A stretch of DNA of 63,880 nucleotides from a bacterium (lineage in GTDB: Bacteria > JAMCPX01). The DNA is taken from positions 1 to 63,880 of the forward strand of contig JAJYLN010000014.1 in NCBI GenBank assembly GCA_021787665.1, written 5' to 3'. Under the pieces are notes generated by a model. It searched no databases. It was not told the origin of the DNA and was given only the letters and a program-made list of their open reading frames with translations. Shown here piece by piece: positions 5,774-53,839 of this stretch. The position numbers and the translations under genes were made by a program. Position 1 is the first letter of the stretch; each line of letters opens with the position of its first letter.

Positions 5774-7174
5774 CTATTTGGCACACTGCCGGGCAGCGGC
5801 CGGACCGGTCGTCAGGGACTGTTTGCCGATAATCGGCGACAGCTCGAAAATATCGATGGCCTGATTCGGGTTTAACGGATCTACGAGTTCCGTGTTATCA
5901 ACGAGCACAGCGAACGGGGCCTGGCCTATCCCCAGTCCCGAGGCAAGTGCATCGTTGCGCGCGATCTCGATACGTGCTGCCCTCTCTTCCCCGGGCCTCA
6001 CCGGGAACGCCTTGTTGAACCCGGACAACGATGGCGCGGTATAAAGCCTGATCATCATGGCTATCAGGCCGTCGAATGACGTCTTCCTGCGGCTATGAAT
6101 TATCGATGCGGATTGAGCGATCTCATCGGAGATCTTGCCGACGTTCATACTCGCTATCACCTTTATATCGGGATGGTACTGATACTTCTTGTAGTCCCGC
6201 AACAGTCTCAGGATGGATATGCAGGCATTGACAGCACTCTTGTCCGTAACGTCCACGAACAGGACTATCCGGCCGGCTATGAAAGGTCTGTCGATGATAT
6301 GCCGGTAACCCAGGTCGCTCAAGGGATCGACGTACTCGCCGTCTATCTCTCTCAGTCTTCTCTTTAGCATACCGAAGCTTGGCGTAGCAGCTACGGTGCT
6401 GCTGAACACCATGACGGGTACGCTCCTCAGGCCGAGTCTCTTCGCGAGCGCTCTCCCCTGCGGGCTGCCCGCTTCCATGAGGCCCACGGTCGCCTTATAA
6501 AAAAAGTCATCCAGGCCTTCCTTCATGATAACCGGATGGTAGACGCCCTCCCAGCCGCCGGTCAGCACGGTTATATCCACGTTGACCGGCGGTTTCAGGG
6601 TCTTGCAGGACGAAAGTCCGGTGAAAGAGGCGCAGGCCGCCCGTATGATGCGCTCGGGCTGGATAGGGCCTCGGTACCGGTGCGAGTCGATGTAAAGGGT
6701 GGGACTCGCATTGATGCCCAGCCTCTCCGTCGCAGCAAAATCGCTGTCCAGTACCTTCCCGGCCTTTCCGGATCGGACAAACGCGTCTATCCTGGTCCTG
6801 TCTATGGCGTTGTTGAAAAGGCACAGGTCGCTGTTCATGGTGCTGTCGTAGCACCGCAGGTAGCCATAGAACTTGCTACCGTATAGTCTCTGGACGCCTA
6901 TCTGACGGAGGTCCTCTTCGAGCTCCGTGGGGCCGTGCAGACTGGTAAAGTTATTCCCACTCTTGCTCACGATATAGGAGACGCGGAGCCCGATGCCGTT
7001 CCCAAAATACCCTATAACGTCTAACAAGCTTTCCTCGGCCCGAATACCGAAGGGACAATGACTCATCACATAAAGGTTCAGCAGGGGCTTTTCTTCGTGG
7101 TGCTTCGTACACGATACCGCGGCGAGGCATAGCAGTGTACAACAGAGCGCGATTTTCCCGGACATTTTGGACAT
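5774..7174 (-). CDS. Lipoprotein with GILT/thioredoxin-like domains
   Basis: A 466-residue exported protein. Residues 1-22 are a lipoprotein signal ending in AVSC (Cys22). The segment LLNLYVMSHCPFGIRAEESL resembles the start of GILT and DsbA-like thiol reductases, but the active site here is a lone Cys (HCPFG) rather than CXXC. Later LGINASPTLYIDSHRYRGP resembles the cis-proline part of the same fold. The C-terminal half, with LGLRSVPVMVFSS and LGIGQAPFAVLVDN, looks like two further degenerate thioredoxin modules. It may bind thiols or act as an envelope scaffold; true disulfide exchange is doubtful without a second Cys. It ends 10 bp before the dedA gene. Confidence 0.6.
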   Translation of the reverse strand: MSKMSGKIALCCTLLCLAAVSCTKHHEEKPLLNLYVMSHCPFGIRAEESLLDVIGYFGNGIGLRVSYIVSKSGNNFTSLHGPTELEEDLRQIGVQRLYGSKFYGYLRCYDSTMNSDLCLFNNAIDRTRIDAFVRSGKAGKVLDSDFAATERLGINASPTLYIDSHRYRGPIQPERIIRAACASFTGLSSCKTLKPPVNVDITVLTGGWEGVYHPVIMKEGLDDFFYKATVGLMEAGSPQGRALAKRLGLRSVPVMVFSSTVAATPSFGMLKRRLREIDGEYVDPLSDLGYRHIIDRPFIAGRIVLFVDVTDKSAVNACISILRLLRDYKKYQYHPDIKVIASMNVGKISDEIAQSASIIHSRRKTSFDGLIAMMIRLYTAPSLSGFNKAFPVRPGEERAARIEIARNDALASGLGIGQAPFAVLVDNTELVDPLNPNQAIDIFELSPIIGKQSLTTGPAAARQCAK

Positions 7175-7176
7175 AG

Positions 7177-7434
7177 TCAGCTCCCCACCATATCTATTTT
7201 CTTTTCTCTTTTGTATATCGCAACTTCATACTTTAATACATCGACCACATAATGATAGTTGTCGATATAGAGCTCGTACATCTGCGGTGCGCCCATCGGT
7301 TGCTGCCCTTCCTGCTGAAAGGCACCCTCGTCGATAAGATGATCCAGCATCTTCCGTATCTCGGAGAAGCTGATGTCCTGATCCGTGATGATATTGAATA
7401 TCAAACTTTTATGTACGATCGGATACGTGTCCAT
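7177..7434 (-). CDS. Conserved-looking hypothetical protein (about 85 aa)
   Basis: Not recognised. From the ATG at 7434 it encodes 85 residues that look like a folded helical protein with a winged-helix-like stretch (SFSEIRKMLDHLIDEGAF), followed by Gln/Pro-rich MGAPQMY and a charged C-terminus (YKREKKID). The frame stays open upstream to 7554, and a TTG near 7470 would add the plausible segment TASLYSFRTRIG, so the start is uncertain. It stops two bases before the lipoprotein gene begins and is probably co-transcribed with it. Confidence 0.5.
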   Translation of the reverse strand: MDTYPIVHKSLIFNIITDQDISFSEIRKMLDHLIDEGAFQQEGQQPMGAPQMYELYIDNYHYVVDVLKYEVAIYKREKKIDMVGS

Positions 7435-7607
7435 ACCGATACGTGTTCTAAAAGAGTACAGGGAAGCTGTCAAGTCAAACTCTCTGCCGCTGGTGGATAA
7501 ACCGGTTCTATGATCCTGCCCCGGAAAGCGCGTCCGTCGCCGGAGCGCTTGCAAAATATTTTTTAATAGTATACAGATAGGTCTTCATCGTTACGACGTG
7601 GTGTCGC

Positions 7608-7680
7608 GGTCCTATCGTCTAGAGGCCCAGGACGTTGCCCTCTCAAGGCAGAAACGAGAGTTCAAATCTCTCTAGGACCA
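7608..7680 (+). tRNA. tRNA-Glu (anticodon CTC)
   Basis: Cloverleaf with acceptor GGTCCTA/TAGGACC, discriminator A, anticodon stem TTGCC/GGCAG around the loop CTCTCAA (anticodon CTC), and T loop TTCAAAT. The 3' CCA is not encoded (CGA follows). It is transcribed toward the convergent esterase gene. Confidence 0.92.
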
Positions 7681-7701
7681 CGATCCCCGTCAACGGCCTG
7701 T

Positions 7702-8838
7702 CTACTGGAGCGTGTCCTTCCAATCCGCTGTATCCGTGATCATATCCGCCGTCCACTGGGAGATCGTGGTTCCGCTCACCTGCATCGTGTAATAGGCCGG
7801 CAATTCGAGCACAGTATGTATGTCTCCATCCACAAAAAACCGCTCGAAATGGGTGGGGTGGGCCGCGTGGATGGCGCCCGTTACGCTGAGCAACAGGCTC
7901 TTAAAGTCCGCCGTACTCATCTGGAGGAAGACAGACCCGATGACCATATCGTTGTAATACGAGAAAAAGCCGAAGTTCACGTCCGGATCGTTATCGAGCG
8001 CCCAGTCTGCAAGATAGCTCATCTGCTGGCTACACTTGGGGCAGTCGGACGGTATGATCCTGCTCAGGTTCCATGTGGCGAGGATGTGCTGGAACAACGA
8101 GGACTCCTGCGGGTTGAACAGCCCTACCCCGGAATCGTTTATCACGTTCAGGGTCGTGAAGGGATACTGCGTCCGCGTCACGAAGTAGCCCATGAAGGTC
8201 CCATAGCCGCCCGCGCTGCTGCCGGCTACGACTATCGTGGAGGGATTGATATAGTCCTGCTTCATCAAGGTCACCGCGGCGGAGAGGTTCGCAAGCCCGT
8301 GGAAGTACGTGGTCTCGGTGGCGCCGGTGAAGTCAACGTCGTTGTCGCCCGACCATACGCTGGCGTCACAGTACGACGCATAGATGATACTGTAATTTTT
8401 GAACGGATTGGCCGGGTTCGTCGGATCGAGCATGCCCATGGGTATCGCGGGGTTGGCCCCGGACTTCGCCAGCTTCTCGCTGTAGCACGTCGTGTAGTCC
8501 CAGCATGCGCCGCCGCCCTCGAGGTAGAGCAACACCTTCTGGGGGTCGCCCCGGTGCAGGGACACGATGTACGGGCTCCCGTTGAAGCACCGCGCCGGCG
8601 AGGACGGGTCGTAGGAGTACACCTCCCATGTGCTGCCGTCTATGGTCTGGGTGGTCTCCAGCGTCGGCTCAAGGCCGATGTACTTGTCGACGCCCATCGA
8701 ATTCAGCCTGTCGAGAAAATCGGGGGCGACTGTCGTGGTGGTGTTCGAGCCGCAGCCATAGAGCACCACGGCGAACAGGGCAGACAGGACGATCCCCGGC
8801 AAACCGACCGTTAGGAAAGCGCGATTGTGTCTCTTCAT
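7702..8838 (-). CDS. Pectinacetylesterase/Notum-like lipoprotein esterase
   Basis: A 378-residue protein from the ATG at 8838, which has a GAAGGGGGT ribosome site. Residues 1-27 are a signal ending in VLYGC (lipobox Cys). The body matches the pectinacetylesterase family: KVLLYLEGGGACWDYTTCY forms the oxyanion region and the nucleophile lies in VVAGSSAGGYG (G-X-S-X-G), with ANPFKNYSIIYASYCDASVWSGD between. A C-terminal Asp and His (e.g. FFVDGDIHTV) complete a likely Ser-Asp-His triad. It probably deacetylates a carbohydrate or acts on another ester at the cell surface. The frame continues upstream to 8955 but lacks a better start. Confidence 0.8.
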   Translation of the reverse strand: MKRHNRAFLTVGLPGIVLSALFAVVLYGCGSNTTTTVAPDFLDRLNSMGVDKYIGLEPTLETTQTIDGSTWEVYSYDPSSPARCFNGSPYIVSLHRGDPQKVLLYLEGGGACWDYTTCYSEKLAKSGANPAIPMGMLDPTNPANPFKNYSIIYASYCDASVWSGDNDVDFTGATETTYFHGLANLSAAVTLMKQDYINPSTIVVAGSSAGGYGTFMGYFVTRTQYPFTTLNVINDSGVGLFNPQESSLFQHILATWNLSRIIPSDCPKCSQQMSYLADWALDNDPDVNFGFFSYYNDMVIGSVFLQMSTADFKSLLLSVTGAIHAAHPTHFERFFVDGDIHTVLELPAYYTMQVSGTTISQWTADMITDTADWKDTLQ

Positions 8839-9019
8839 GCTACCCCCTTCCCGCATCCTATACCATACCGCGCCGGAGAAGTAAACCAGACGAGCAAAGG
8901 CTGCTGCCTCCTCCGGTAGTATGTCGACGCCGCGCGCCGCGCTTGCATTTATCACGGTGATAATCTACCATCGGGCTGTCACGACAGGGGGTACTCCCCA
9001 CCCCGCAATCACGGCGCGT

Positions 9020-9057
9020 GCGCCCGTAGCTCAGGGGATAGATCGTCGGACTTCGAA
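9020..9057 (+). repeat. Decayed 5' half of tRNA-Arg(TCG), left attachment site of the island
   Basis: 38 bp from the first acceptor base to the end of the anticodon loop (CTTCGAA) match the 5' part of the intact tRNA-Arg at 21129 at 36 of 38 positions. The two differences are GGGG for GTGG in the D loop and GATC for GAGC in the D stem; the second breaks D-stem pairing. After CTTCGAA the tRNA similarity stops abruptly. This fits one of the two attachment repeats left by integration at the palindromic TTCGAA of the anticodon loop. Confidence 0.85.
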
Positions 9058-9449
9058 AACGCCCAGTGGCATTTAAAATATTTCTTGTAATGCCAAACAC
9101 TTGTGCCAACCTATTGATACTGTGAGAGTTTTCCAGCATTATATAGAATGAACAGTTTCTACTGATTGTACAGAAAAGGACTATTTTCACAAAAAAATGG
9201 CAGCAGGTTGGCAGCAAGAAATTGTGCCTTTCACACCTGAGGAAAGATTCAATGTCAATGTTTTCCTCTTCAGAAATGTCATTTAACGCGCAGAGAGCCC
9301 ATCTCTGCCAGATGCTGGAATCAATCAATTCCATATCCAGATTTCCGATAACTTTCAGAACCGTATTGGCACAGACGATCGCCCGGTTCGATGGTAATTG
9401 TTTCTCTACATCTCGATTTTTGTTATAAGTACCTAAAGGAGGAATTGCC
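9058..9449. other. Left end of island, no gene seen
   Basis: 392 bp with no convincing coding frame. It holds inverted short motifs, GTGCCAACCT near 9102 and AGGTTGGCAG near 9205, plus repeated TGCC/GGCA words. These could be recombinase arm sites, but this is only inference. Confidence 0.3.
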
Positions 9450-9602: not shown

Positions 9603-9803
9603 ATGCCCAACCACAACAACCTCAAGCAAATTAGGAATAAGGCGCTTCTGAGCAAGGCAGAGCTTGCAAGGAAGGCCGGTGTGTCGGTACTCACCATTTC
9701 ACGAATAGAATGCGGCGAGGACTGCAGGATGGACACCAAGAGGAAGGTTATTCAGGCTCTGGGGATGAAGATTACGGAGAAGGGAAAGGTGTTTCCGGGG
9801 TGA
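9603..9803 (+). CDS. XRE-family helix-turn-helix protein (66 aa)
   Basis: A compact lambda-repressor-like DNA-binding protein. LKQIRNKALLSKAELARKAGVSVLTISRIECG spans the HTH, and the rest (RMDTKRKVIQALGMKIT) completes the five-helix domain with a short tail. It lies six bases after the small membrane protein, suggesting a regulator/partner pair. The gene is convergent with the 1181-aa gene (38 bp apart). Single-domain XRE proteins of this size commonly repress their own operon. Confidence 0.85.
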   Translation: MPNHNNLKQIRNKALLSKAELARKAGVSVLTISRIECGEDCRMDTKRKVIQALGMKITEKGKVFPG

Positions 9804-9841: not shown

Positions 9842-12800
9842 TTATTCCCTTGCGTTCCGCTGAGGGCGCTGTTCCATATCAAGGACAAGGAATACTACTT
9901 TGACTTCATCAAACGAAGAGCTGTATGTTGTAACAAATCCTATTGGCCTTGAGTCAGTAAATGGTATCTTTTTGAGATCTTGGAATGTGAAACCATCGGG
10001 AACCTCTGATTGGGATATTTCTTGTAAGAAATCTAACACTGAATCAGGTTGTGCTACATAGGAGTATGTTATGTGGAAGAACAGAGGACATATAGAGTAA
10101 CCCAGGAGCTTTTTGAAATGATAAGTAAGATTTTCCCTTGTATCTTGATGTGTCACGGGTTGCTTACACACAACTGCTTCAATTACGCTGAGTTCAAAAC
10201 TACCCTTAGATAATACAAGATCTCGTTTCCCTGGATTTCCTTTTTCGGTGAAACCACCTCTAGATTGATCCCTTACTGACCACCCGAGGAATTCCAATCG
10301 CGCACTCAATAACTGCTGAACCAATGCGGTAATATCATCCTCACAAGAATCAAGCTTAACATCCTTCATCATAGGGACCAGTGAAACAACGCTTGCAGCT
10401 GTGGCACGCACGTGACTAATAATCAGCTCACTAAGTGCATTTGGTGGCCCAGGAAAAACGTTCGCTTGATATAAAGGGGCCATATTTTGGAAATCATATA
10501 TAGCAGTCTTAATGCGTGTAACTGTATCCTCTACCGAGGTAGGAAGTGCTCGAGCATCAAATGGTACACTATTCTTAATTTGTGCCTGAGCTGCTTGTAA
10601 ATATTTTGTATCTCCGAAGAGTTGAATCTGTCGTTTCAATGCGTCAATGGCATCAGTACTACGCCCCATTCGTGAAAGTGCTACAGCTGAATAGGCTATC
10701 ACTTGATCCTGTAATGCAGAGCTCCCAACCTCTTCTAGAGCTTCATAAGCTTGCTCTGGTTGCCCAATTGCTAGGAGTAATAAAGCTCTGTTATAAGTAT
10801 GAATAGCTATATCCTCGTCCCGAACGCCTCGCCATTTACTCATGTCCATATCCGCATCTGTTAGCGCTTGGCGCGCGCGTTTAACATCCAAACCATGGAG
10901 TTGACCGAATAGATTACCTGACAGGAGAATACTTACTCGCACCGCTAATAAATTCACAGCATACGCAACGATATCAGGGTGACGCTGATGTAGTTGTCGA
11001 AAGATTGTTTCGGCTGTATTGAGATTGCCCTTAGGTTTTGAGAGTTCAGAAAGTGCCTTGTAGAAGTTGAGTGTCTCTTGGGCCTTGTTGATCTCGCTTG
11101 GCTCCATTTCGGAGGGTAATGCTGTTTGCGTGATCCCATCGAAGTCTTCTCGAAGAAAACGTAGTCGCAAATTCATGGTAAAGCGAAATAGTTCACGACC
11201 GGGAACCTTGCCTAATGTCTGCATATCCTTTTCTACATCAATAAATTTTGTAGCAGCATCCAATGCACCCGCTGATAACAACCCTTCGATTCGAGCCTGA
11301 ATTTCTGTTAAAGATGACACATCTCCAGCATATTCTGGGGTGAGTTCATTGATACGGGTTTGAATTCGAGTTCGCGTAGAGCGAGGAGCCACTGCAAGCA
11401 GTTGTGCGAGCATCAGAGGTTCATCAGTTTCAAGGATCGCCTGAAGTAAGCTCTCTTGTCCCTTATCCTTAAGAGACACAAGTGCTTTACCGAGATCCGT
11501 CGCAATAGTTTGATCTTCACGTCTACCCAGTGGATTATTCTCGTACTTAGCAGCAAACGCGGCGACACGTCCCTTTTCAGAATGTGTAAAGGCGCCAATT
11601 CGTACGGCATCGACAAGGGCCTCAATAAAATCTTCCGGTAGAGTATCTTCCCACACAGAAATCACACGACACAACACTCGAATGTGTGCACGAAGGGAAC
11701 GAGCTATCTGATCTTTAACCGCAAATTCGTTAGCGCCGGGTTCTTGTCCTTTAGCAAGAAGTGCCCGTATATCTAACGGGAAAAGGATATCTCGCCGTCG
11801 TTCGGGTACCCGTACGGCCAACTGCATAAGAGCAAGTGCGCTAGATGTATCGATCCTATTCGCAGACAATGAATAGTCGCCTTGACGAATGGAGCAAAGA
11901 TATGCATCAACAAAAGGCTCGGGGGAAATTGTTCCGGAAAGTGATCCTTGTGCCACGACATCGAGCGCAGCCGCAAAATTTGGATATCCTAGACCAGTGT
12001 ACGAAAGGGCTGTAATGCATGCGTTGGCAATCTTGAGCAGAATATCGGTCGGCTGTCGAGTTAATTCTGCTCGGATTATGGAAAACATCTGTTCATCAAA
12101 TTGGCGGACCTGGTTAAAGAAGGTTCGTCTGCCTGCTTGCGCATGCATCCACGAAAGTAGTGCTGCAACCTCCCTGGGATCGACCGTAGCCGTTGATAGA
12201 AAGTAACCCAAGACAGAAACTGCATCGGTGAACGCTATCAATCTGGCTGTACGATCATCACGAGTCGTTACTTCACGATCATACGCCCCCCCGCTCAATG
12301 GCCATTCGGCAATTAGCATGCACGAAAGTGCAGAGAACCGTGGTTCAAACAACATATCCGCAAGCAAGACTGGCTCCTGGCGGATCTTGAGCGTGATGAA
12401 CTCTAGAAGCTCTGGACGATCGGCGGCCAGTTCGAACAGAGTCTGCGCCACCGGATGCGGAGCCGGAGACTGGTCAGTATCTTGAGCATCGCGCAGCAGA
12501 AGACGGGTTAGGTTCCACAGGTCTTCGCATGCGTCATCGTCATCCCGTGCGTGCTCAAATTCTCGTCTCTCTAACCAAAGATACCGATCAACAAATGTGG
12601 TCGGAACCGCAGGAATGCGTCCGTCGATTTCAGATGGTGTGAGGCCCGAATCCCGGGCCAAGCTACCAACTAAGCGCTTACGCAATTGATCCCATCCGAA
12701 AAGACTGACATCAGAGCAGAGCACCTTAAATGCAGCCTCACGAAATTCCTGTGCAGTAGTGTTATCCCATACGCTACTGGGCGCAAAGGCATATCCCGAA

Positions 12801-13387
12801 AGTAAGTTGCAACGATCTGCCCAATATCGAAGTCGGGCCGTCAAGGCGAGATATTTTGGTGCTCGTTCCCAGAGCCGCGCAGCTACCCATTCTGGTGCGG
12901 GACATTCTAGAGGTTTGATGTCCTTTGGACTGTTTAGAAAGGTCGCGATTATTGGCTGCAGGGCTGAATCCTCCTGCGCCTTAGAATCGACCTCAAATTT
13001 ACGTTCAAAGCGTCGCTCCAATACAGGGCCTAGTGCCACACGAAGCTCATCGTTTGCTCGTGTTAGAAGATGCGATGAGTTCCTTCTCGCAAATAGGCGC
13101 TTCCAGGTAAGGCGAATCCATCCCAAGGGAACCAGTTCTTCAAACGCTGGTGCACCAGTATGCTGCCGCCGAAGGTCCTCATAGATCGTATGAGCTTTCT
13201 TTGGATCATTCCCGAACTCAATACTCAGATTGAGCAGCAACTTCAGAACTGACTCATCGTTCAATGAGCTGTGGTTCCGTGATTGGAGAACCCTCCATTT
13301 TGACATTGGCAAGTTCCTACTGAGGCGCTCTCGCAAAACGCGACGTTTATCAGTCGGCGAATAACCAAGGCTTTCAAATCTTGACAT
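9842..13387 (-). CDS. Large helical protein with possible PD-(D/E)XK C-terminus; unknown function (candidate defence protein)
   Basis: A 1181-residue protein I do not recognise. No P loop, helicase or membrane segment is visible. Residues ~1-1000 are dominated by amphipathic helices; the part around 700-930 reads like TPR/HEAT-type repeats (e.g. AEIFRQLHQRHPDIVAYAVNLL, IGQPEQAYEALEEV). The C-terminus has a helix ending LEFLGWSVRDQS, then GKRDLVL (Asp ~1056) and SVIEAVVCK (Glu ~1070), the order of motifs in PD-(D/E)XK nucleases, although the usual E-X-K is altered. It lies 214 bp downstream of the SPARTA pair on the same strand inside the island, which suggests an antiphage role by location only. 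Confidence 0.65.
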   Translation of the reverse strand: MSRFESLGYSPTDKRRVLRERLSRNLPMSKWRVLQSRNHSSLNDESVLKLLLNLSIEFGNDPKKAHTIYEDLRRQHTGAPAFEELVPLGWIRLTWKRLFARRNSSHLLTRANDELRVALGPVLERRFERKFEVDSKAQEDSALQPIIATFLNSPKDIKPLECPAPEWVAARLWERAPKYLALTARLRYWADRCNLLSGYAFAPSSVWDNTTAQEFREAAFKVLCSDVSLFGWDQLRKRLVGSLARDSGLTPSEIDGRIPAVPTTFVDRYLWLERREFEHARDDDDACEDLWNLTRLLLRDAQDTDQSPAPHPVAQTLFELAADRPELLEFITLKIRQEPVLLADMLFEPRFSALSCMLIAEWPLSGGAYDREVTTRDDRTARLIAFTDAVSVLGYFLSTATVDPREVAALLSWMHAQAGRRTFFNQVRQFDEQMFSIIRAELTRQPTDILLKIANACITALSYTGLGYPNFAAALDVVAQGSLSGTISPEPFVDAYLCSIRQGDYSLSANRIDTSSALALMQLAVRVPERRRDILFPLDIRALLAKGQEPGANEFAVKDQIARSLRAHIRVLCRVISVWEDTLPEDFIEALVDAVRIGAFTHSEKGRVAAFAAKYENNPLGRREDQTIATDLGKALVSLKDKGQESLLQAILETDEPLMLAQLLAVAPRSTRTRIQTRINELTPEYAGDVSSLTEIQARIEGLLSAGALDAATKFIDVEKDMQTLGKVPGRELFRFTMNLRLRFLREDFDGITQTALPSEMEPSEINKAQETLNFYKALSELSKPKGNLNTAETIFRQLHQRHPDIVAYAVNLLAVRVSILLSGNLFGQLHGLDVKRARQALTDADMDMSKWRGVRDEDIAIHTYNRALLLLAIGQPEQAYEALEEVGSSALQDQVIAYSAVALSRMGRSTDAIDALKRQIQLFGDTKYLQAAQAQIKNSVPFDARALPTSVEDTVTRIKTAIYDFQNMAPLYQANVFPGPPNALSELIISHVRATAASVVSLVPMMKDVKLDSCEDDITALVQQLLSARLEFLGWSVRDQSRGGFTEKGNPGKRDLVLSKGSFELSVIEAVVCKQPVTHQDTRENLTYHFKKLLGYSICPLFFHITYSYVAQPDSVLDFLQEISQSEVPDGFTFQDLKKIPFTDSRPIGFVTTYSSSFDEVKVVFLVLDMEQRPQRNARE

Positions 13388-13601: not shown

Positions 13602-15113
13602 TTATATATAGTGCTTAAACGGAAGCACGCCAATGTTTTTCATCGGACCAGCAGTCAATATTTCCCCAATAGCATCGGCAAAACGCAAGGTAACCGGAAC
13701 GCCATCTCCATAGATACAGGCATTATAGTTCAGCTTTGTCAATGCCAATACGTCTCGACAGACTGTTTCAATATCGGCCGTGTCGCGAGTTACCTCAATG
13801 CTAAGCGGATTAGGAGTCTCCATTCCTATTGGTGATTGAAGTCTCGACACGTATCCTTTTGTCCAGAGAAACGCATTTTTATTATCAATCATTAAAGACA
13901 TGCCTCTCGGTACCGGGTATGGGAACTCTCGATAGAGCTTGAATCCGTAATCATCCCTAATCCGAATGCCAACCAACTTCGATTTTCCTTGCGAGCCTTC
14001 TTCGAAGCCTTTCCACTCCTCATCACTAAAATATGTTTTAGCATGAATAAATATCTCTTTTGGAAAGGCATTATTTTTCTCCTTGAATGTCTCTAATGCC
14101 TTTTGTATCAAGTCAGCAGATCCTTCCCGATTCAAGTGAAATTCTTTTTTATCGGGGTTATACCAAGGGCCAAGATTCCCTCGGAAAACCAAACCGTCAC
14201 CTGAGTCGAGAAACATTTGTGCGGCACAGCACGCATATTTGTCATTTGAGTTATTTTCTACACGTTTATAAACAAGTCCGACATAACAGACATCTTTTCT
14301 CACCTCGCCAAGCTTCCATGGCAGTCCGCCGATTTTATAATAGAGGGCTGTAGATAAGCTCCATGCTATAGCAGATTCAAATTTGCGCAGATCTCTTTGA
14401 AGCTTTCCTTTTTCGTTCTTGATCTCGGCATACGCTATGGTACTCTCGCGTATTACCTGTGTAACTATTCTGCTCTCCAGCAGCTTTGCCTTTAACTGAT
14501 TATGGAAATTCTTCTCATACTTATATGCCTCTTGTAGTGCACGGTCTTCTTCAAAAAGAAGCAGTTCAGTCCGAGACTTTCTTGGAAGCCCGATGTTTAT
14601 GTTACCCTCTTTGGGAATTCGGGACTTGGGTCTACAATGCTGGTAAATCGAATCCGGTATTACCACAAGCCAAACTAATACAGGACGCTCTTCCTGCTTC
14701 TGGTATTTGATAAGTGCATCGGCATACAAGTTAACAAGATTGTGAATCCTTTGATGGTCATCAAAATATTGAAGGTACTTGTCTATCGCGTCTTGACTTA
14801 CCTCAAGTTGCACTATCGCGTCGATGTTAATATCGAAATTGTAGGTAGCCTCTATGCCAGGGAAATAAGGACGTGCTATGGAATCGTCAGTTTGATTAAC
14901 CGGCTTGCGCGCTTTCTCTATCCAGCTAATGAGTCTTTTTCTCGACACATCAGCTCCTATAATACCAATTGGGGGTGATTGATACTGTATCTCGTTGCGA
15001 GTATATGGTCCGAATAATGTCAAGCCATCTCTAGGGTCTATAATCTTCTGCTCATACCCGAAGGTCAGAGAGGGCTCTTCGATATAGGTAAGCTTATAAA
15101 GCTTCGTCGTCAT
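13602..15113 (-). CDS. Short prokaryotic Argonaute (MID-PIWI), SPARTA subunit
   Basis: A 503-residue MID-PIWI protein without PAZ or N domains. The C-terminal KLNYNACIYGDGVPVTLRFADAIGEIL is a typical PIWI ending (LTKLN..PVTL..A..G), and FPKEIFIHAKTYFSDEEW belongs to the PIWI core. The first catalytic Asp of active Argonautes is missing (CYVGLVYKR where G-[IV]-D is expected), so it should be cleavage-dead, as in short pAgo systems. It would bind a small guide RNA and, on finding invader DNA, activate its partner. Its start overlaps the end of the TIR-APAZ gene by 20 bp, so the two are translated together. Confidence 0.9.
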   Translation of the reverse strand: MTTKLYKLTYIEEPSLTFGYEQKIIDPRDGLTLFGPYTRNEIQYQSPPIGIIGADVSRKRLISWIEKARKPVNQTDDSIARPYFPGIEATYNFDINIDAIVQLEVSQDAIDKYLQYFDDHQRIHNLVNLYADALIKYQKQEERPVLVWLVVIPDSIYQHCRPKSRIPKEGNINIGLPRKSRTELLLFEEDRALQEAYKYEKNFHNQLKAKLLESRIVTQVIRESTIAYAEIKNEKGKLQRDLRKFESAIAWSLSTALYYKIGGLPWKLGEVRKDVCYVGLVYKRVENNSNDKYACCAAQMFLDSGDGLVFRGNLGPWYNPDKKEFHLNREGSADLIQKALETFKEKNNAFPKEIFIHAKTYFSDEEWKGFEEGSQGKSKLVGIRIRDDYGFKLYREFPYPVPRGMSLMIDNKNAFLWTKGYVSRLQSPIGMETPNPLSIEVTRDTADIETVCRDVLALTKLNYNACIYGDGVPVTLRFADAIGEILTAGPMKNIGVLPFKHYI

Positions 15114-16527
15114 TATGCTCCCTATCTAAAACAGTGTCATCAATGTCTTCGAGCTCATCATCTATTTCGGTATTTAATCCGAGTCTTTCCTTTGACACAG
15201 GATCGTTATAACCATAAGTAGATTCCATCTGGACTGTATACAGAGGCATTTTCAAGGGGAATTGATTATTTAATGGAATGGAGAGCGAATTGTTTTGTGT
15301 CTGCATAGCGGCAATAAAAGCCATCATCTGGTCTCTCCATTGCTCATTGAACCATGTTTTACCCTTCTGTCTTCTACTTGAATGTAGCCTCCTGGGGTCA
15401 TCCCAGATAGTTACTCCATTATCCGAAAACAGAATATGAGACTTTAGGTTAAAGCAAGGATAGGGAAACAGCTTTGCCCTTGATGAGATACCAAAATGCC
15501 AATATCCATTTAGATACTTGCCAAGGATGTTCTTTGTTTTTCTATAGCCGTTTGGATATAGGATATGAACCTTGTTTTTTATCTGCCATTTCCTTGCCTT
15601 GATTGACACTTTATCCTTTGTGAAAAAATAGCAGAGAGATTTGCCAGACATTTCATACCACGCTGTTCCGCTCCTTTTCGCGAGCAAATGAAATACTCTG
15701 TTCAGCAGCCATGTAAGCTGTCTTCGTTCTTCATGCAGCTTATCTCCAGAGCTTTCTATGGTATCGGAAATTGAGATTCTAACCGTTGCGATGGGACTAA
15801 TCTTGGTATCAACAATGCTTATCAAGGTCGTGTCCTCGTTCGAACGGACATCAGCTCTTGGTATTTGGTCATCGAAAGAGATGAGCTGATTGCCATGTAT
15901 TATAACCGGGAATTCCTTTAAGGTACCCAGAACAAGTTTTGCTTCGCTTTCTGATTTGTACTTGAATGAATAAAAATAGTCCGGCAGATTTTCAATCTTC
16001 CACCAATTCGTATAATAAATCTCACGTTTCTTCTTAATAATTGAGTGGTTTGCATGGAGTGTGTTGATTATAACATTGCTAATGTTTGTATTGCTTTTCG
16101 GAACAGAATCCTTTTCAAGTTTCTCAAGCAGAGCTTTTAGTCCCTTAGCCCAATAATCGACCGAGTCAATGTGGTTATATCTGTTCTGGCCGATTCTCGC
16201 ATTGAACAAACTGCTGTCAATTTTTATAGGAATAATGAAGTCGGTTAAGCCGTGTTGTTTCTCAAGACTTCTTGCATATTCGAATTCGTTTATCACCCCG
16301 TCCTTTTGGAAAGTCGTTGCCGAGACAACCAAAACGAATTTGATTGCATTGTTATCCAGAACTTTTTGAATGTCATCCCATAACTTCTCCCCACCTTTAA
16401 GATCAAATAAATCGCACCAGACCTTATACCCAGCAAGCTGGAGCCTAGTAGCAAGCCAACGAGTATATTCATTGTCTTCAGGATTCGAATGACAAACAAA
16501 CAATATATTTCTATCTCCGTTGGCCAT
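15094..16527 (-). CDS. TIR-APAZ effector protein, SPARTA subunit
   Basis: A 477-residue partner of the short Argonaute. Residues ~6-140 form a TIR domain: NILFVCHSNPEDNEYTRWLA, YKVWCDLFDLKGGEKLWDDI, VLVVSATTFQKDG, and the presumed catalytic Glu81 in VINEFEYA. The rest (~150-477) fits the APAZ region that replaces the N and PAZ domains and clamps the Argonaute. In characterised SPARTA systems, guide-target binding makes four complexes assemble and the TIR domains degrade NAD(P)+, killing or arresting the invaded cell. It is the first gene of the pair, and the upstream 270 bp (16528-16800) are AT-rich and probably hold the promoter. Confidence 0.88.
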   Translation of the reverse strand: MANGDRNILFVCHSNPEDNEYTRWLATRLQLAGYKVWCDLFDLKGGEKLWDDIQKVLDNNAIKFVLVVSATTFQKDGVINEFEYARSLEKQHGLTDFIIPIKIDSSLFNARIGQNRYNHIDSVDYWAKGLKALLEKLEKDSVPKSNTNISNVIINTLHANHSIIKKKREIYYTNWWKIENLPDYFYSFKYKSESEAKLVLGTLKEFPVIIHGNQLISFDDQIPRADVRSNEDTTLISIVDTKISPIATVRISISDTIESSGDKLHEERRQLTWLLNRVFHLLAKRSGTAWYEMSGKSLCYFFTKDKVSIKARKWQIKNKVHILYPNGYRKTKNILGKYLNGYWHFGISSRAKLFPYPCFNLKSHILFSDNGVTIWDDPRRLHSSRRQKGKTWFNEQWRDQMMAFIAAMQTQNNSLSIPLNNQFPLKMPLYTVQMESTYGYNDPVSKERLGLNTEIDDELEDIDDTVLDREHNDDEAL

Positions 16528-16883: not shown

Positions 16884-17237
16884 AAAAATATAGGGGTCAA
16901 GCCTACACATTTGACAAGTGTATTTATATGAAAGACAACGGGGTCAAGTCTTAAAAATATAGGGGTCAAGCCTACACATTTGACAAGTGTATTTATATGA
17001 AAGACAACGGGGTCAAGTCTTTACTTTTGATCATTCCAATTCTTCAACAACCGGCTTATCGTCGAGTAATGGAATCCGAGTATGTCGGCAATCTCTTTCT
17101 GACGGTACCCGTACAGCATCACTGCATCATATATTGTTTTGTTCCGTTTGATCCTATTTAACTTCTCTCCGCCAGTGATATCGTTTGACCGTCTGAGCCA
17201 GGATATTCAGAAACAGCGCTCTGTCGGAATCGTTTCG
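16884..17237. repeat. RAYT-derived repeat, copies A1 (short) and A2 (long)
   Basis: A 69-bp unit starting AAAAATATAGGGGTCAAG (16884-16952) is followed directly by a longer copy from 16953. A2 matches the copies at 20067-20970 for about 285 bp, up to TCGGAATCGTTTCG, where the intact RAYT element interrupts it. On the minus strand A2 encodes the C-terminal helix-turn-helix of a RAYT transposase (YRQKEIADILGFHYSTISR). Confidence 0.85.
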
Positions 17238-17239
17238 AA

Positions 17240-18281
17240 GGAAGAAAGGTGTCAGGTCTTGACATTTGACATAAGAGCAGTTTTGCGGTAGTATAGTTTT
17301 ATGGGACGGCCATTAAGAATAGAATATCCTGGAGCCTTGTATCATGTCATGAGCAGAGGCAATGAGCGAGGCAAGATATTTTATGACACAGCGGATAGAT
17401 TAAAATTTCTGTCACTCCTCAAAGATTATCATGAGCGCTATGGTATTCTGATCCACAGCTTTGTCCTGATGAATAATCATTATCACCTCATTATTGAGAC
17501 ACCCAAAGCCAACCTTTTGAAGGTCATGCACGGCATTAACGGAGTATACACCGTCTATTATAACCGGCGTCACGCCCGGATCGGACACTTGTTCCAGGGG
17601 AGATACAAAGCGATTGTGGTAGATAAAGATGCATACCTGATGGAACTGAGCAGGTATGTCCATTTGAATCCGGTACGGGCAGGAATCACAGAAAAGCCTG
17701 AGAAGTATACATGGAGCAGTTATCCAACGTATATCGGGGAAAAAACAGGGTATGAGTGGATTGAATGTGCATGGATACTTAAGCAATTTGGAAATAATAC
17801 AACAGCGGCACGGAAGAAATACCGCCGCTACGTTGAAGAAGCAATAGTGCGGGGTGTGGAAAACCCCATGAAAGCAATATTCGGACAGATAGTGCTTGGC
17901 GGGGAACAGTTTATTGAACAAATCAAGAATATGGTGAAGGGAAAGCATCTTAGCGGGGAGATCGTTGAGCGTACCCGGATGCTCAAGCAGGTTCTTCCGG
18001 GAGAGATTATCAGGATGGTGGCTGAAAGATACGGTGTTAACGAGAATTCTATTTGTGCCAGGGACCTGAGGGGAAATCTTCCCCGGAGGGCTGCAATGTA
18101 TTTGGTGTACAAATACACCCATCTGAGCAACCGGGAAGCCGGCAAGATATTTGGAGGGATACATTACAGTGCATTGCGCAAAGCGTTTGTGCGGTTTGAA
18201 GAAGAACTCGCGACAAACAAGAGTCTATCAGGCACCATTACGGCGTTAGAGTCACATGTCAAGACCTGACACCATTCTTCC
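17240..18281 (+). mobile_element. Intact RAYT (REP-associated tyrosine transposase) element with 26-bp inverted repeats
   Basis: The ends are inverted repeats, GGAAGAA then GGTGTCAGGTCTTGACAT, at 17240-17265 and 18256-18281, with one mismatch in 26. A single transposase gene lies between them and its stop codon falls inside the right repeat. The left end interrupts repeat copy A2 and the right end abuts a cut ISL3 transposase, so this insertion is younger than both. Confidence 0.85.
17301..18269 (+). CDS. REP-associated tyrosine transposase (RAYT, IS200-like Y1 family)
   Basis: A 322-residue protein with the Y1 transposase fold: RPLRIEYPGALYHVMSRGNERGKIF at the start, the metal-binding HUH-type motif in MNNHYHLIIETP, RIGHLFQGRYKAIVVDKDAYLMELSRYVHLNPVRAG containing the nucleophile Tyr region, and WSSYPTYIG. 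The C-terminal ~110 residues carry a DnaA-like helix-turn-helix (MVAERYGVNENSICARDLRG..AAMYLVYKYTHLSNREAGKIFGG). RAYTs cut and move single-stranded palindromic sequences. It appears complete and possibly active, and may have mobilised the related repeats around it. Confidence 0.92.
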   Translation: MGRPLRIEYPGALYHVMSRGNERGKIFYDTADRLKFLSLLKDYHERYGILIHSFVLMNNHYHLIIETPKANLLKVMHGINGVYTVYYNRRHARIGHLFQGRYKAIVVDKDAYLMELSRYVHLNPVRAGITEKPEKYTWSSYPTYIGEKTGYEWIECAWILKQFGNNTTAARKKYRRYVEEAIVRGVENPMKAIFGQIVLGGEQFIEQIKNMVKGKHLSGEIVERTRMLKQVLPGEIIRMVAERYGVNENSICARDLRGNLPRRAAMYLVYKYTHLSNREAGKIFGGIHYSALRKAFVRFEEELATNKSLSGTITALESHVKT

Positions 18282-18673: not shown

Positions 18674-19615
18674 ACGCTTGCCAAGCTGTTATTCTCTTTT
18701 AATTACACGTGGTTACTTCTACATAAGAGGTCTTTTTTACCCACTCACTTTGGAGAAGAGCCATTAAATCAAAGCAAACATAGTTGGTTTGCAAATTTTG
18801 ATGATCGGCCGGCTCGACTTTTTGATGGACTGGAACATATACGTGCTTCAATCTTTTCGGTGCAGAAAGGTAAACCTGAATCTGGTCATATTTTTTCAAC
18901 AAATTATCACAGATGGTATTCTGAAATTCGTGGCCAATTGTTCCAGTTGTTGCACTATTCAAATATTTCTTCTCATTTAATGGACGGTTCGATTCCTAAA
19001 GTTGGTCAAGCAACGGCAATGCAGATAATAGAGCGTATTAGTAAATTTAATTCATTACAAGAATCTTTAATAAATAAGCCAAGACACTACATTTATTTTC
19101 ATAATGCACCACAGTACTGGATTCGGGCGATGGACTTTGAACCGTACTTCTGGAATGAACGGGATGGAAAACAGATATCTACACAGGTAAAAGCATTGCA
19201 ATTAAAGCTTAAAATGGATGTGCCTGTTGTTACGGCCATATTGAATAGTAGTATATTTTACTGGTGGTTTGTCATCCTTTCAGACTGTCGGCATCTTAAT
19301 ACACGTGAAATAGAAAGGTTTCCTGTCGGTCTGAATCAAATGCAAGAACCCATTAAAACAAAACTCGCGGCGCTTTCGGAGCATCTCATGTTAGATTTAA
19401 AGCAACATAAATATCGAAAAGAGGCACATTATAAAGCAACCGGTAAGGTTATTTACGACGAGTTTTATCCAAAGTATTCTAAGTCCATCATTGATGAAAT
19501 TGACCGCATACTTGCACAGCACTACGGCTTTACGGATGAGGAAGTTGACTATATCATCAACTACGACATCAAATACCGCATGGGGCAGGAAATGCAAGAA
19601 CAGATAGAGGAGTAG
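18674..19615 (+). pseudogene. C-terminal part of an Eco57I/type IIG-like restriction-modification enzyme
   Basis: An open frame of about 310 codons with no proper start. WFANFDDRPARLFDGLEHIR, then FHNAPQYWIRAMDFEPYFWN and VVTAILNSSIFYWWFVILSDCRHLNTREIERFP are typical of the C-terminal target-recognition part of Eco57I-like adenine methyltransferase/nuclease proteins. The catalytic N-terminal part (NPPY motif) is gone. The first ATG is at 18860, but homology begins earlier, so this is a 5'-truncated gene. The end is intact and a reverse-transcriptase gene starts two bases after its stop. Confidence 0.65.
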
Positions 19616-19617
19616 CA

Positions 19618-20066
19618 TTGGAATTGCGAGAGGTGTTGTCCCTCCATAATCTTGAACTTGCATGGCGTCGGATTACAACTGGCATGAACTTGTCTTACAA
19701 GAGGTACTTCCGCAAACTTTATTATAATTACGAGATTGGCATCAAGGACAATTTACATGACTTACACGTTCGATTGGAAGGTGGCAGCTATAAGCCACAG
19801 CATCCAACAAAGATCTATCTTCCAAAACCATCGGGTCTGCAACGGCCAATTACTCTTTTATGTATCGAGGACCAGATTGTCCTTCAGGCTATTGCCAATA
19901 TTTTTGCACGAAAAGTATTACAGCGCAGGCAGAAGTTGGAATACAAGTTTATTTTTAGCAATATTACCCAATCTGAGACAAAATCTATTTTCTTTTTACA
20001 AAATTGGAGGTTTTCATACTCTCAGTTCCAAGCTAAAATAACCGATGATTTTAATAGGGGTTATGA
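19618..20066 (+). pseudogene. 5' part of a reverse transcriptase, cut by a RAYT-derived repeat
   Basis: A TTG start two bases after the preceding stop opens a frame with the N-terminal fingers of a reverse transcriptase: AWRRITTGMNLSYKRYFRK, NLHDLHVRL, then KIYLPKPSGLQRPITLL and CIEDQIVLQAIANIFA, and a further SNITQSETKSIFF..W. The frame then runs into repeat copy B at about 20067, before the palm and the YXDD catalytic motif. About 150 of the expected 400-600 codons remain. The style resembles Abi/UG-type defence reverse transcriptases rather than group II introns; this is an inference. Confidence 0.68.
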
Positions 20067-20296
20067 GAAATATAGGGGTCAAGCCTACACATTTGACACA
20101 TGTATTGGAAGACAACGGGATCGACAACGGGGTCAAGTCTTTACTTTTGATCATTCCAATTCTTCAACAACCGGCTTATCGTCGAGTAATGGAATCCGAG
20201 TATGTCGGCAATCTCTTTCTGATGGTACCCGTACAGCATCACTGCATCATATATTGTTTTGTTCCGTTTGATCCTATTTAACTTCTCTACGCCAGA
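20067..20296. repeat. RAYT-derived repeat, copy B
   Basis: Starts GAAATATAGGGGTCAAGCC and runs 230 bp to CTACGCCAGA. It is nearly identical to copies A2, C and D but has its own insertion near the left end (ACATGTATTGGAAG), shared only with copy C. It truncates the reverse-transcriptase gene. Confidence 0.88.
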
Positions 20297-20541
20297 GAAA
20301 TATAGGGGTCAAGCCTACACATTTGACACATGTATTGGAAGACAACGGGATCGACAACGGGGTCAAGTCTTTACTTTTGATCATTCTAATTCTTCAACAA
20401 CCGGCTTATCGTCGAGTAATGGAATCCGAGTATGTCGGCAATCTCTTTCTGACGGTACCCGTACAGCATCACTGTATCATATATTGTTTTGTTCCGTTTG
20501 ATCCTATTTAACTTCTCTCCGCCAGTGATATCGTTTGACCG
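20297..20541. repeat. RAYT-derived repeat, copy C
   Basis: A direct tandem neighbour of copy B, about 245 bp, with the same ACATGTATTGGAAG variant and a slightly longer right part ending GTTTGACCG. B and C probably arose by local duplication. Confidence 0.88.
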
Positions 20542-20542
20542 C

Positions 20543-20970
20543 AAAAAAAAAATATAGGGGTCAAGCCTACACATTTGACAAGTGTATTTATATGAAAGAC
20601 AACGGGGTCAAGTCTTTACTTTTGATCATTCCAATTCTTCAACAACCGGCTTATCGTCGAGTAATGGAATCCGAGTATGTCGGCAATCTCTTTCTGACGG
20701 TACCCGTACAGCATCACTGCATCATATATTGTTTTGTTCCGTTTGATCCTATTTAACTTCTCTCCGCCAGTGATATCGTTTGACCGTCTGAGCCAGGATA
20801 TTCAGAAACAGCGCTCTGTCGGAATCGTTTCGGAATATCGCCTTTTTCTCGTTGCCGCGACCAGTAACATGGTACACCGCAAAAGGATATTCTATGCGTA
20901 AAGGCCTTGCCATACAGTATTGCTACCAAGAAGGACAAGGAATGTCATAAATAAAGACTTGACCCCTATT
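20543..20970. repeat. RAYT-derived MITE-like element, copy D (complete, both ends)
   Basis: The only copy with both termini. The left end AATATAGGGGTCAAGCCT is mirrored by AAAGACTTGACCCCTATT at 20953-20970. The roughly 425-bp unit is an internally deleted RAYT transposon and explains the shorter copies A2, B and C as its truncated derivatives. Its right end interrupts the island integrase gene. Confidence 0.82.
20616..20913 (-). pseudogene. Internally deleted RAYT transposase inside copy D
   Basis: On the minus strand an ATG at 20913 opens with ARPLRIEYPFAVYHVTGRGNE, the conserved RAYT N-terminus, and runs about 50 codons to KRYHWR before the frame breaks. The distal part encodes the C-terminal helix-turn-helix (YRQKEIADILGFHYSTISR) and a stop at 20616. 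The whole catalytic core with the HUH and Tyr motifs is deleted. This creates a non-autonomous element that a related RAYT could move. Confidence 0.8.
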
Positions 20971-21128: not shown

Positions 21129-21201
21129 GCGCCCGTAGCTCAGTGGATAGAGCGTCGGACTTCGAATCCGCAGGTCATGGGTTCAAATCCCATCGGGCGC
21201 T
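21129..21201 (+). tRNA. tRNA-Arg (anticodon TCG), intact copy and right attachment site
   Basis: Acceptor GCGCCCG/CGGGCGC, D arm GCTCAGTGGATAGAGC, anticodon stem CGGA/TCCG around CTTCGAA (anticodon TCG), T loop TTCAAAT. CCA is not encoded. The first 38 bases repeat the half copy at 9020. In an island of this geometry these bases come from the element, and the 3' half is the chromosomal one. Confidence 0.93.
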
Positions 21202-52363: not shown

Positions 52364-53413
52364 TCATGCTTGTGTAAAGAGTCTTAATTCTGTTCTCTTT
52401 GCGAACCAGACAAGCACAAGCATGACCGGCACTTCGATAAGCGGACCGATGACCGTTGCAAGGGCAACGGTCGGGTTAAAAGCTGTGATGGCGATCGCAA
52501 TGGCTATTTCGAAATCCCTGCCTGTTGAATTGAATGCAACTGCTACAGAATCCTGATAGCTCAACTTCAGTTTCCAGCCTACGAAATAAACTACGACAAA
52601 CATTGTCCAGAAAAAGATGATCATGGGTACTGCCATCTGTACAATAAATATCGGCTCTTTCAGGATCAGATCACCTTTCAGCGCGAACATGACAATGAGG
52701 GTAAAAAGAAGTCCAACAATGGATAAGGTATCCAGATAGAATTTCAACCGCTGAAACCACGCCTCACCGAATCTTTTTACACCCACTACTCTCGTAAGAA
52801 TGCCTGCAACAAGCGGTATGCCGAGATAGAGGAGTACACTCTCACCGACAACCCATACATCGAAATGGACATTGCCAAGCAATAGCTTTGCATAGACGGG
52901 GATGAGCAGCATTTGAATAATGGAATTAACAGCAACCAGTATGATTGCAAGGGGAGCATTGCCCTGGGCAAGATAGGTAAACACAATCACCATCGCGATG
53001 CAGGGTGCAAGCCCGTAGAGTACAAGGCCGGTGGAAAGGTCCGGCTCATTGCCCAAAAATAGTCTAGCAAGCAGCAGCATGAAAAATGGGGCTATTGCAT
53101 AATTGAAAAACAGTACGATAAGAAGCTGTTTTGGCGATCGTGCTGACTTGCCGAGGTCCTCAAACTTGATATTTGCCATCGCAGGATAAATCATCATAAA
53201 AAGCCCGACAACAACACCGAGAGCCAGGGTATTGGGAAGATTAAATTCATAGGTTCCCTGCAGTATTGCTTTGATCGCATCAATTGGCGGTGTGAGCTGA
53301 AAATTGGATATGCCATAGAGCTTTCCAATACCGATACCTATTGCCATGCTGACAACAACAAAAACCGGCAGCAGTTTGAAATTGTGCAGTTTCTCAAGCA
53401 ATCTTCTGAACAC
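52364..53413 (-). CDS. acr3: Arsenite efflux permease, ACR3 family
   Basis: A 349-residue integral membrane protein with ten hydrophobic segments. The hallmarks of ACR3 are present: a conserved cysteine in LYGLAPCIAMVIVFTYLAQGNAPLAI, FNSTGRDFEIAIAIAITAFNPTVALATVIGPLIEVPVML and LFFNYAIAPFFMLLLARLFL. It exports As(III) and may be energised together with ArsA. It overlaps arsC by 20 bp and is the last gene of the main ars unit. Confidence 0.94.
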   Translation of the reverse strand: MFRRLLEKLHNFKLLPVFVVVSMAIGIGIGKLYGISNFQLTPPIDAIKAILQGTYEFNLPNTLALGVVVGLFMMIYPAMANIKFEDLGKSARSPKQLLIVLFFNYAIAPFFMLLLARLFLGNEPDLSTGLVLYGLAPCIAMVIVFTYLAQGNAPLAIILVAVNSIIQMLLIPVYAKLLLGNVHFDVWVVGESVLLYLGIPLVAGILTRVVGVKRFGEAWFQRLKFYLDTLSIVGLLFTLIVMFALKGDLILKEPIFIVQMAVPMIIFFWTMFVVVYFVGWKLKLSYQDSVAVAFNSTGRDFEIAIAIAITAFNPTVALATVIGPLIEVPVMLVLVWFAKRTELRLFTQA

Positions 53414-53825
53414 GCTTTAACTCCTCAACAAGGATTTCAATCTTTTTCTGTATCTCGTCCCTCGCTTTACGGAAGGCATTCACAACCTCTTCCTCAGTAC
53501 CGGTTGCTGATGTAGGGTCATCGATAGACCAGTGGATCCGTTTGATCCGCGGCGGAGTCATAGGACACAATGCCTCAGCGCTGCTGCAGAGTGTGATGAT
53601 AATGTCCATCGTATGCAACAGACTTTCGTCTATACCTTTTGATGTCTGACAAGAAATATCGACACCTGTCTCTTTCATCACCTGAACTGTTTTCGGATGC
53701 ACTTCGGACGGCTTCACACCAGCACTGTACGGCTCTATCACACCTTTTCCCATCGCCCGGGCAAATCCCTCGGCCATCTGGCTCCGGCAAGAATTGCCGG
53801 TACACATAAACATTATTTTTACCAT
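53394..53825 (-). CDS. arsC: Arsenate reductase, low-molecular-weight phosphatase type
   Basis: 143 residues. The P loop MFMCTGNSCRSQMAEGFARAMG contains the nucleophile motif CX5R, followed by the redox region VDISCQTSKGID and the general-acid loop DIIITLCSSAEALCPMTPP with two cysteines of the thiol relay. It reduces arsenate to arsenite with thioredoxin. It lies between arsA (14 bp) and acr3 (overlap). Confidence 0.94.
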   Translation of the reverse strand: MVKIMFMCTGNSCRSQMAEGFARAMGKGVIEPYSAGVKPSEVHPKTVQVMKETGVDISCQTSKGIDESLLHTMDIIITLCSSAEALCPMTPPRIKRIHWSIDDPTSATGTEEEVVNAFRKARDEIQKKIEILVEELKRVQKIA

Positions 53826-53839
53826 GGATTATCTTCCCA

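Follow-up and report, generated by a model that had tools for sequence, protein, structure and literature searches.

A large solenoid protein with a putative C-terminal nuclease domain, a candidate single-gene defence effector carried by mobile elements

STAND/Avs proteins are sensor-plus-effector defence proteins. P4 satellites carry a TIR-STAND-TPR protein, and P2/P4 phages and the repressor-side loci of K139-like phages are known defence hotspots, the P2/P4-like cargo including old, tin, PARIS and others (PMC9122126). In P2 the region past gpA is a hotspot, and in related phages one is known between repressor and integrase (PMC9122126). Here we analyse a protein of 1181 residues encoded on the minus strand, at positions 9842-13387, of a bacterial contig of 63,880 nucleotides (JAJYLN010000014.1), referred to below as the window. 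Like STAND/Avs proteins and the P4 protein, it is a very large single polypeptide borne by mobile elements, with a TPR-type region as its presumed sensor and a presumed effector at one terminus. It differs from STAND/Avs in having no P-loop NTPase (Walker A in none of 14 members), in carrying the putative effector at the C-terminus and in belonging to another family. With the P2/P4 cargo it shares comparable prophage positions, namely the repressor side of a P2-like phage, integrase-linked elements and one phage that also carries Lamassu. The difference is that this family is unnamed in PADLOC 2.0.0 (2023), PHROGs v4, Pfam (2025) and NCBIfam 20.0 (2026), and no open-access paper describing it was found. 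We regard it as moderately probable that the protein is a stand-alone, single-gene effector against mobile elements, most likely against phages, built from a solenoid sensor and a PD-(D/E)XK-like nuclease. The gene and its parts are read as follows.

9842-13387, minus strand: whole open reading frame (ORF) of the 1181-residue protein (P0001), combining the solenoid and the putative nuclease; based on the ORF, colinear relatives and purifying selection.
11588-13387, minus strand: N-terminal helical solenoid body, residues 1-600, no family match, conserved start M-S-R-F; based on AlphaFold secondary structure and the alignment.
10565-11560, minus strand: TPR superhelix, residues ~610-941; Pfam TPR_14 at 4.9e-6 and VIA-align Z up to 14.2.
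9845-10342, minus strand: putative PD-(D/E)XK-like domain, residues ~1016-1181; based on invariant residues.

The ORF is intact, starts with ATG and runs for 1181 codons. Its GC content at codon positions 1, 2 and 3 (0.60, 0.42 and 0.40) shows coding structure and, since the third-position value lies far below the 0.71-0.84 of nearby host genes, the gene is probably of foreign origin. Pfam recognised TPR repeats alone, near residues 780-940 (27.2 bits for TPR_14 against a cut-off of 23.5), while PADLOC and NCBIfam gave no match at a useful level and a sequence search of the PDB gave none; all family members, compared later with the libraries, behaved in the same way. APAZ, PIWI and TIR domains were absent from the Pfam and PADLOC results for the protein. 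Neither a Walker A motif (G-x4-G-K-[ST]) nor a match to an NTPase family was found in the 14 members, and strong transmembrane segments are lacking in the window protein; a mechanism driven by nucleoside triphosphates or based on a membrane pore is therefore unlikely. Two matches were set aside as chance: one to PADLOC PifA (0.0016; residues 932-1018 of the protein of locus L019), which covers a linker and comes without Walker A, and those to a mitochondrial Rho GTPase profile (E 0.04).

Plain single-sequence searches of genome contigs, viral contigs, plasmids, phages and several hundred genomes returned no relatives, an outcome that we ascribe mostly to weak probes or to rarity. A1, a probe alignment whose variant rows were invented, found none either. 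A second probe (A2), in which row 1 was the real C-terminus and the other rows were random except at guessed conserved positions, recovered the first two real relatives, both on IMG/VR contigs and about 50% identical in the C-terminal domain. All later probes were built from real sequences, and the resulting alignments (A3 and A5) yielded two further viral contigs and 12 genome loci. These belong to a Rhodospirillales metagenome-assembled genome (MAG), an unclassified Proteobacteria MAG, Edwardsiella piscicida (whose locus matches viral contig L007), Paraburkholderia, Curvibacter (two), Gluconacetobacter, Acidithiobacillus ferrivorans, an alphaproteobacterial MAG, Pseudoroseomonas, Rhodoblastus and Bradyrhizobium. 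The relatives come from about 15 independent loci in Pseudomonadota and viral contigs.

The relatives share 33-47% identity with the window protein when partial copies are included, and full-length proteins 33-43%. Colinearity extends from end to end, over some 1180 residues, in ten full-length proteins (counting that of the window), and the ratio of nonsynonymous to synonymous substitution rates (dN/dS) between relatives is 0.12-0.30, indicating purifying selection. This colinearity and this selection demonstrate that the ORF is more than chance. Some copies are decaying: that of Bradyrhizobium is a fragment, that of Paraburkholderia is truncated, and that of Rhodoblastus (L022:5801-10645) is split by an IS3-type insertion with transposase ORFs at 6650-7803, which shows recent loss of function. 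In the protein tree, bacterial hosts and viral contigs are intermixed, as expected for horizontal transfer.

The family appears to be rare and previously unnamed, and apparently undescribed in the libraries and open-access papers covered. A domain-wide draw of 385 other genomes contained no relative, nor did the 8 other genomes of the host's own phylum (nine in the search collection). In the taxonomic families of two relatives, only the seed genome carried the gene (1 of 249 and 1 of 350 genomes), and the 57 genomes of one order held one further partial copy. These figures are rough, as the first-look filter of the genome screen may miss some copies. No relatives were found in Escherichia coli genomes, plasmids or phage records.

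An AlphaFold model computed from the 14 aligned sequences (mean predicted local distance difference test score, pLDDT, 78.3; predicted template modelling score 0.62) is nearly all helix from residue 1 to about 950. Residues ~610-941 superimpose on TPR structures in VIA-align, the top rows giving root-mean-square deviations of 3.4-6.5 over 186-263 residues; together with the Pfam match, this identifies a superhelix of TPR helical pairs. The remaining N-terminal helices are solenoid-like, according to Foldseek matches to HEAT and TPR proteins with low TM scores.

In the C-terminal domain ten residues are invariant (E1016, D1017, Q1041, N1051, G1053, R1055, D1056, E1070, H1090 and K1093); E1016, D1056, E1070 and K1093 are each present in 14 of 14 sequences. 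The model places a helix at 1016-1034, strands at 1037-1041, 1056-1061 and 1064-1074, a helix at 1081-1094 and a strand at 1102-1109. This predicted order fits that of the PD-(D/E)XK core (PMC1913061). Furthermore, D1056 opens strand 2 and E1070 lies within strand 3, so that the acids of motifs II and III are in the expected strands, while E1016 would supply the motif I acid from the first helix and K1093 sits in the motif IV helix. Membership of the domain in the PD-(D/E)XK superfamily is likely on this modelled basis, rather than established; the protein differs from the superfamily in matching no Pfam member and in its fusion to a solenoid of ~940 residues, and the fold of its domain is unsupported by a structure match.

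A preliminary description of this DNA, made from the letters alone, had presented an unrecognised 1181-residue protein with a helical, repeat-like body, and both points hold: the ORF lies exactly where it was placed, no library names the family, and the model and the TPR matches agree on a TPR/HEAT-like body. It had also pointed to a C-terminal motif, D...E-A-V-x-x-K. The string E-A-V-V-C-K is present and both acids are invariant, as given above, but the lysine does not stand, because position 1075 is variable (K/D/S/G/N/R) and is a lysine in only 3 of 14 sequences. The terminal nuclease that it suggested is likewise borne out in part, by the order of strands and helices and by the invariant acids, and not by any fold match.

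Nearly every informative relative lies inside or beside a mobile element. In L004 the gene is antisense, flanked by the gene for a major head protein and by a second gene of the head region; a tail sheath gene is close by. In L007, L008 and L014 (Edwardsiella and two IMG/VR contigs) it has recE/recT on one side and, on the other, a CI-type repressor and then DnaB; in L005/L009 it adjoins the repressor of a P2-like phage with gpA. Past gpA, on the same contig as this repressor-side relative, lies the Lamassu gene LmuB (L009:8972-10939). An S24 repressor adjoins the gene in L013, and its other side is occupied by an HKD-SNF2 helicase, DUF4391 and a type III-like methylase; this three-gene set (L013:553-6529) resembles a restriction-type defence system. 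Integrase, YqaJ and AbiLi accompany the copy in L017, and AbiLii was read in L016, its sister locus. The L022 copy occurs with an integrase and a Toprim/helicase protein, the L012 copy with ArdC and the L018 copy with ParA/ParB. As a raw count, a known defence system was nearby at 4 of the ~15 independent loci, the window included. These settings are those of mobile elements and defence rather than of housekeeping, in line with the role that the preliminary description had proposed. No gene besides the homologue recurs across loci, the matches between flanks being limited to distant repressors and integrases, and the neighbours are often encoded on the other strand; the family thus most likely works through one gene. 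The preliminary description had offered an independent single-gene system as one of two options, and it is the one that fits best, as no partner recurs.

From these data we infer the following mode of action. The family would travel on prophages, integrative elements and genomic islands and would use its ~940-residue helical/TPR solenoid as sensor and scaffold. The solenoid would keep the C-terminal PD-(D/E)XK-like domain inactive until it binds a trigger made by the phage, either a protein or a nucleic acid structure, and binding would then release the nuclease or activate it allosterically. The metal site would consist of E1016, D1056 and E1070, with K1093 taking the place of the classical motif III lysine, and the activated domain would cut nucleic acid, probably DNA, so that phage growth would be stopped through destruction of the phage DNA or abortive infection. 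The position beside the SPARTA genes described below would then be a matter of clustering within a defence island. We propose only tentatively, as a possibility slightly short of evenly balanced, the more specific model in which an NTPase-free alpha-solenoid recognises the phage trigger directly and switches on a fused PD-(D/E)XK domain with a helix-moved lysine, the whole being exchanged among prophages, satellites and islands.

Several observations weigh against a nuclease effector of defence. The lysine of motif III (E-X-K) is absent, position 1072 being V, L or I. None of the nuclease families of Pfam, NCBIfam and PADLOC matched any member, and in Pfam this holds at E values up to 10 for 14 members. 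Modelling of residues 955-1181 from the single sequence gave a pLDDT of 40, at which fold matches are meaningless, and fold searches with the whole model returned helical solenoids and low-significance viral proteins, and no nuclease fold; these lists, filled by the solenoid, say nothing on the C-terminal domain. The defence-neighbour figure is a raw count and not an enrichment, and location on mobile elements also fits functions in counter-defence, superinfection exclusion or lysogeny. As to the lysine, PD-(D/E)XK families in which the motif III lysine or arginine has migrated to the motif IV helix are documented, for example DUF506, DUF790 and DUF1626 (PMC1913061), and K1093 probably replaces it here in the same manner.

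The same missing lysine and missing family match could be taken to mean that the C-terminal domain is a degenerate nuclease fold that binds nucleic acid or protein and does not cut, in a protein devoted to superinfection exclusion, counter-defence or lysogeny control in prophages. The sites beside CI-type repressors and inside phage late genes would suit such a role. However, three residues resembling metal ligands (E1016, D1056 and E1070) and the helix lysine K1093 have remained invariant across deep divergence, which argues for catalysis, and the window copy and several relatives reside in islands with other defence genes and with no structural phage genes in view. We therefore consider this explanation unlikely, while giving it some weight. 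To the idea that the protein is a helical scaffold of ordinary cell function, for instance in assembly or regulation, which came into the island by chance, we give hardly any credence: the TPR matches and the huge solenoid body do recall general scaffolds, but the rarity and patchiness of the family in the screens above, the foreign composition of the gene and the mobile contexts of most relatives speak against it. A single-gene defence effector with a terminal nuclease remains the reading that we favour.

The other role to be weighed comes from the neighbouring genes, which we place outside the system:

13602-15113, minus strand: short prokaryotic Argonaute (pAgo) of SPARTA; PADLOC pAgo_I at 1e-196.
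15094-16527, minus strand: TIR-APAZ protein of SPARTA; PADLOC at 3.5e-120 and Pfam TIR_2 at 3.3e-17.

The SPARTA pair is real, as both genes are strong PADLOC matches. The pAgo gene is itself downstream of the TIR-APAZ gene, and the gene of the 1181-residue protein follows after a gap of 214 bp on the same strand, as the preliminary description had stated. Short-pAgo systems (among them SPARDA, with its DNase/RNase effector) resemble the present candidate as nucleic-acid-targeting defence, SPARTA being also its neighbour in the window; the 1181-residue protein differs in its lack of APAZ, PIWI and TIR domains and in that its relatives do not accompany pAgo. The arrangement on one strand, with no strong terminator on the minus strand of the gap, would allow the protein to be a SPARTA accessory, co-transcribed with TIR-APAZ and pAgo and serving as an extra nuclease of the Argonaute complex. 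Nevertheless, neither TIR-APAZ nor pAgo was found at any of 17 relative loci scanned, within the flanks fetched, and the gene stands alone there. Furthermore, among 72,556 plasmid records, 100 carry a relative of the window pAgo and none carries a relative of the 1181-residue protein. The gene also differs from SPARTA in GC content (0.47 against 0.40-0.43) and in codon-position profile. The absence of pAgo and TIR-APAZ from relative loci, together with that of relatives from pAgo plasmids, makes a role as Argonaute partner, the other option of the preliminary description, unlikely, and in the specific form of a co-transcribed accessory we hold it to be very improbable.

The 5′ part of a tRNA-Arg gene (its first 44 nt, to the anticodon loop) is duplicated at 9019-9062, 12.1 kb upstream of the intact gene (21129-21201), and the two likely mark the ends of the island. 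Between them, no gene was recognised as an integrase. A 66-codon gene for an XRE-type helix-turn-helix (HTH) protein (9603-9803, plus strand) converges on the 3′ end of the gene analysed here and may be on the host side of the island. The stretch at 17240-18281, together with those at 16884-17237 and 20066-20832, holds a gene for a REP-associated (Y1) transposase that ends in a DnaA-type HTH, imperfect terminal inverted repeats of 31 nt and several long direct repeats; the direct repeats of 285 nt are present as two identical copies at 16953 and 20548, and the common motif is GGGGTCAAG...TTTGACA. Two broken defence genes lie in succession at 18860-20271: one retains the C-terminal portion of a type IIG restriction-modification enzyme, the other the N-terminal portion of a UG19 (DRT-type) reverse transcriptase. 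Further away, at 52364-55645, some genes look by eye like those of an arsenite exporter and of an ArsA-type ATPase in duplicate, which suggests a metal-rich habitat of the host.

This unnamed, large and conserved family borne by mobile elements offers a direct candidate for a new phage-defence system of one gene, for which D1056A, E1070A and K1093A are clear point mutants and many natural homologues are at hand. Should it prove to function NTPase-free, it would exemplify phage sensing by a simple solenoid-to-nuclease switch and, if the reading is true, prophages would have one more weapon against competing phages.
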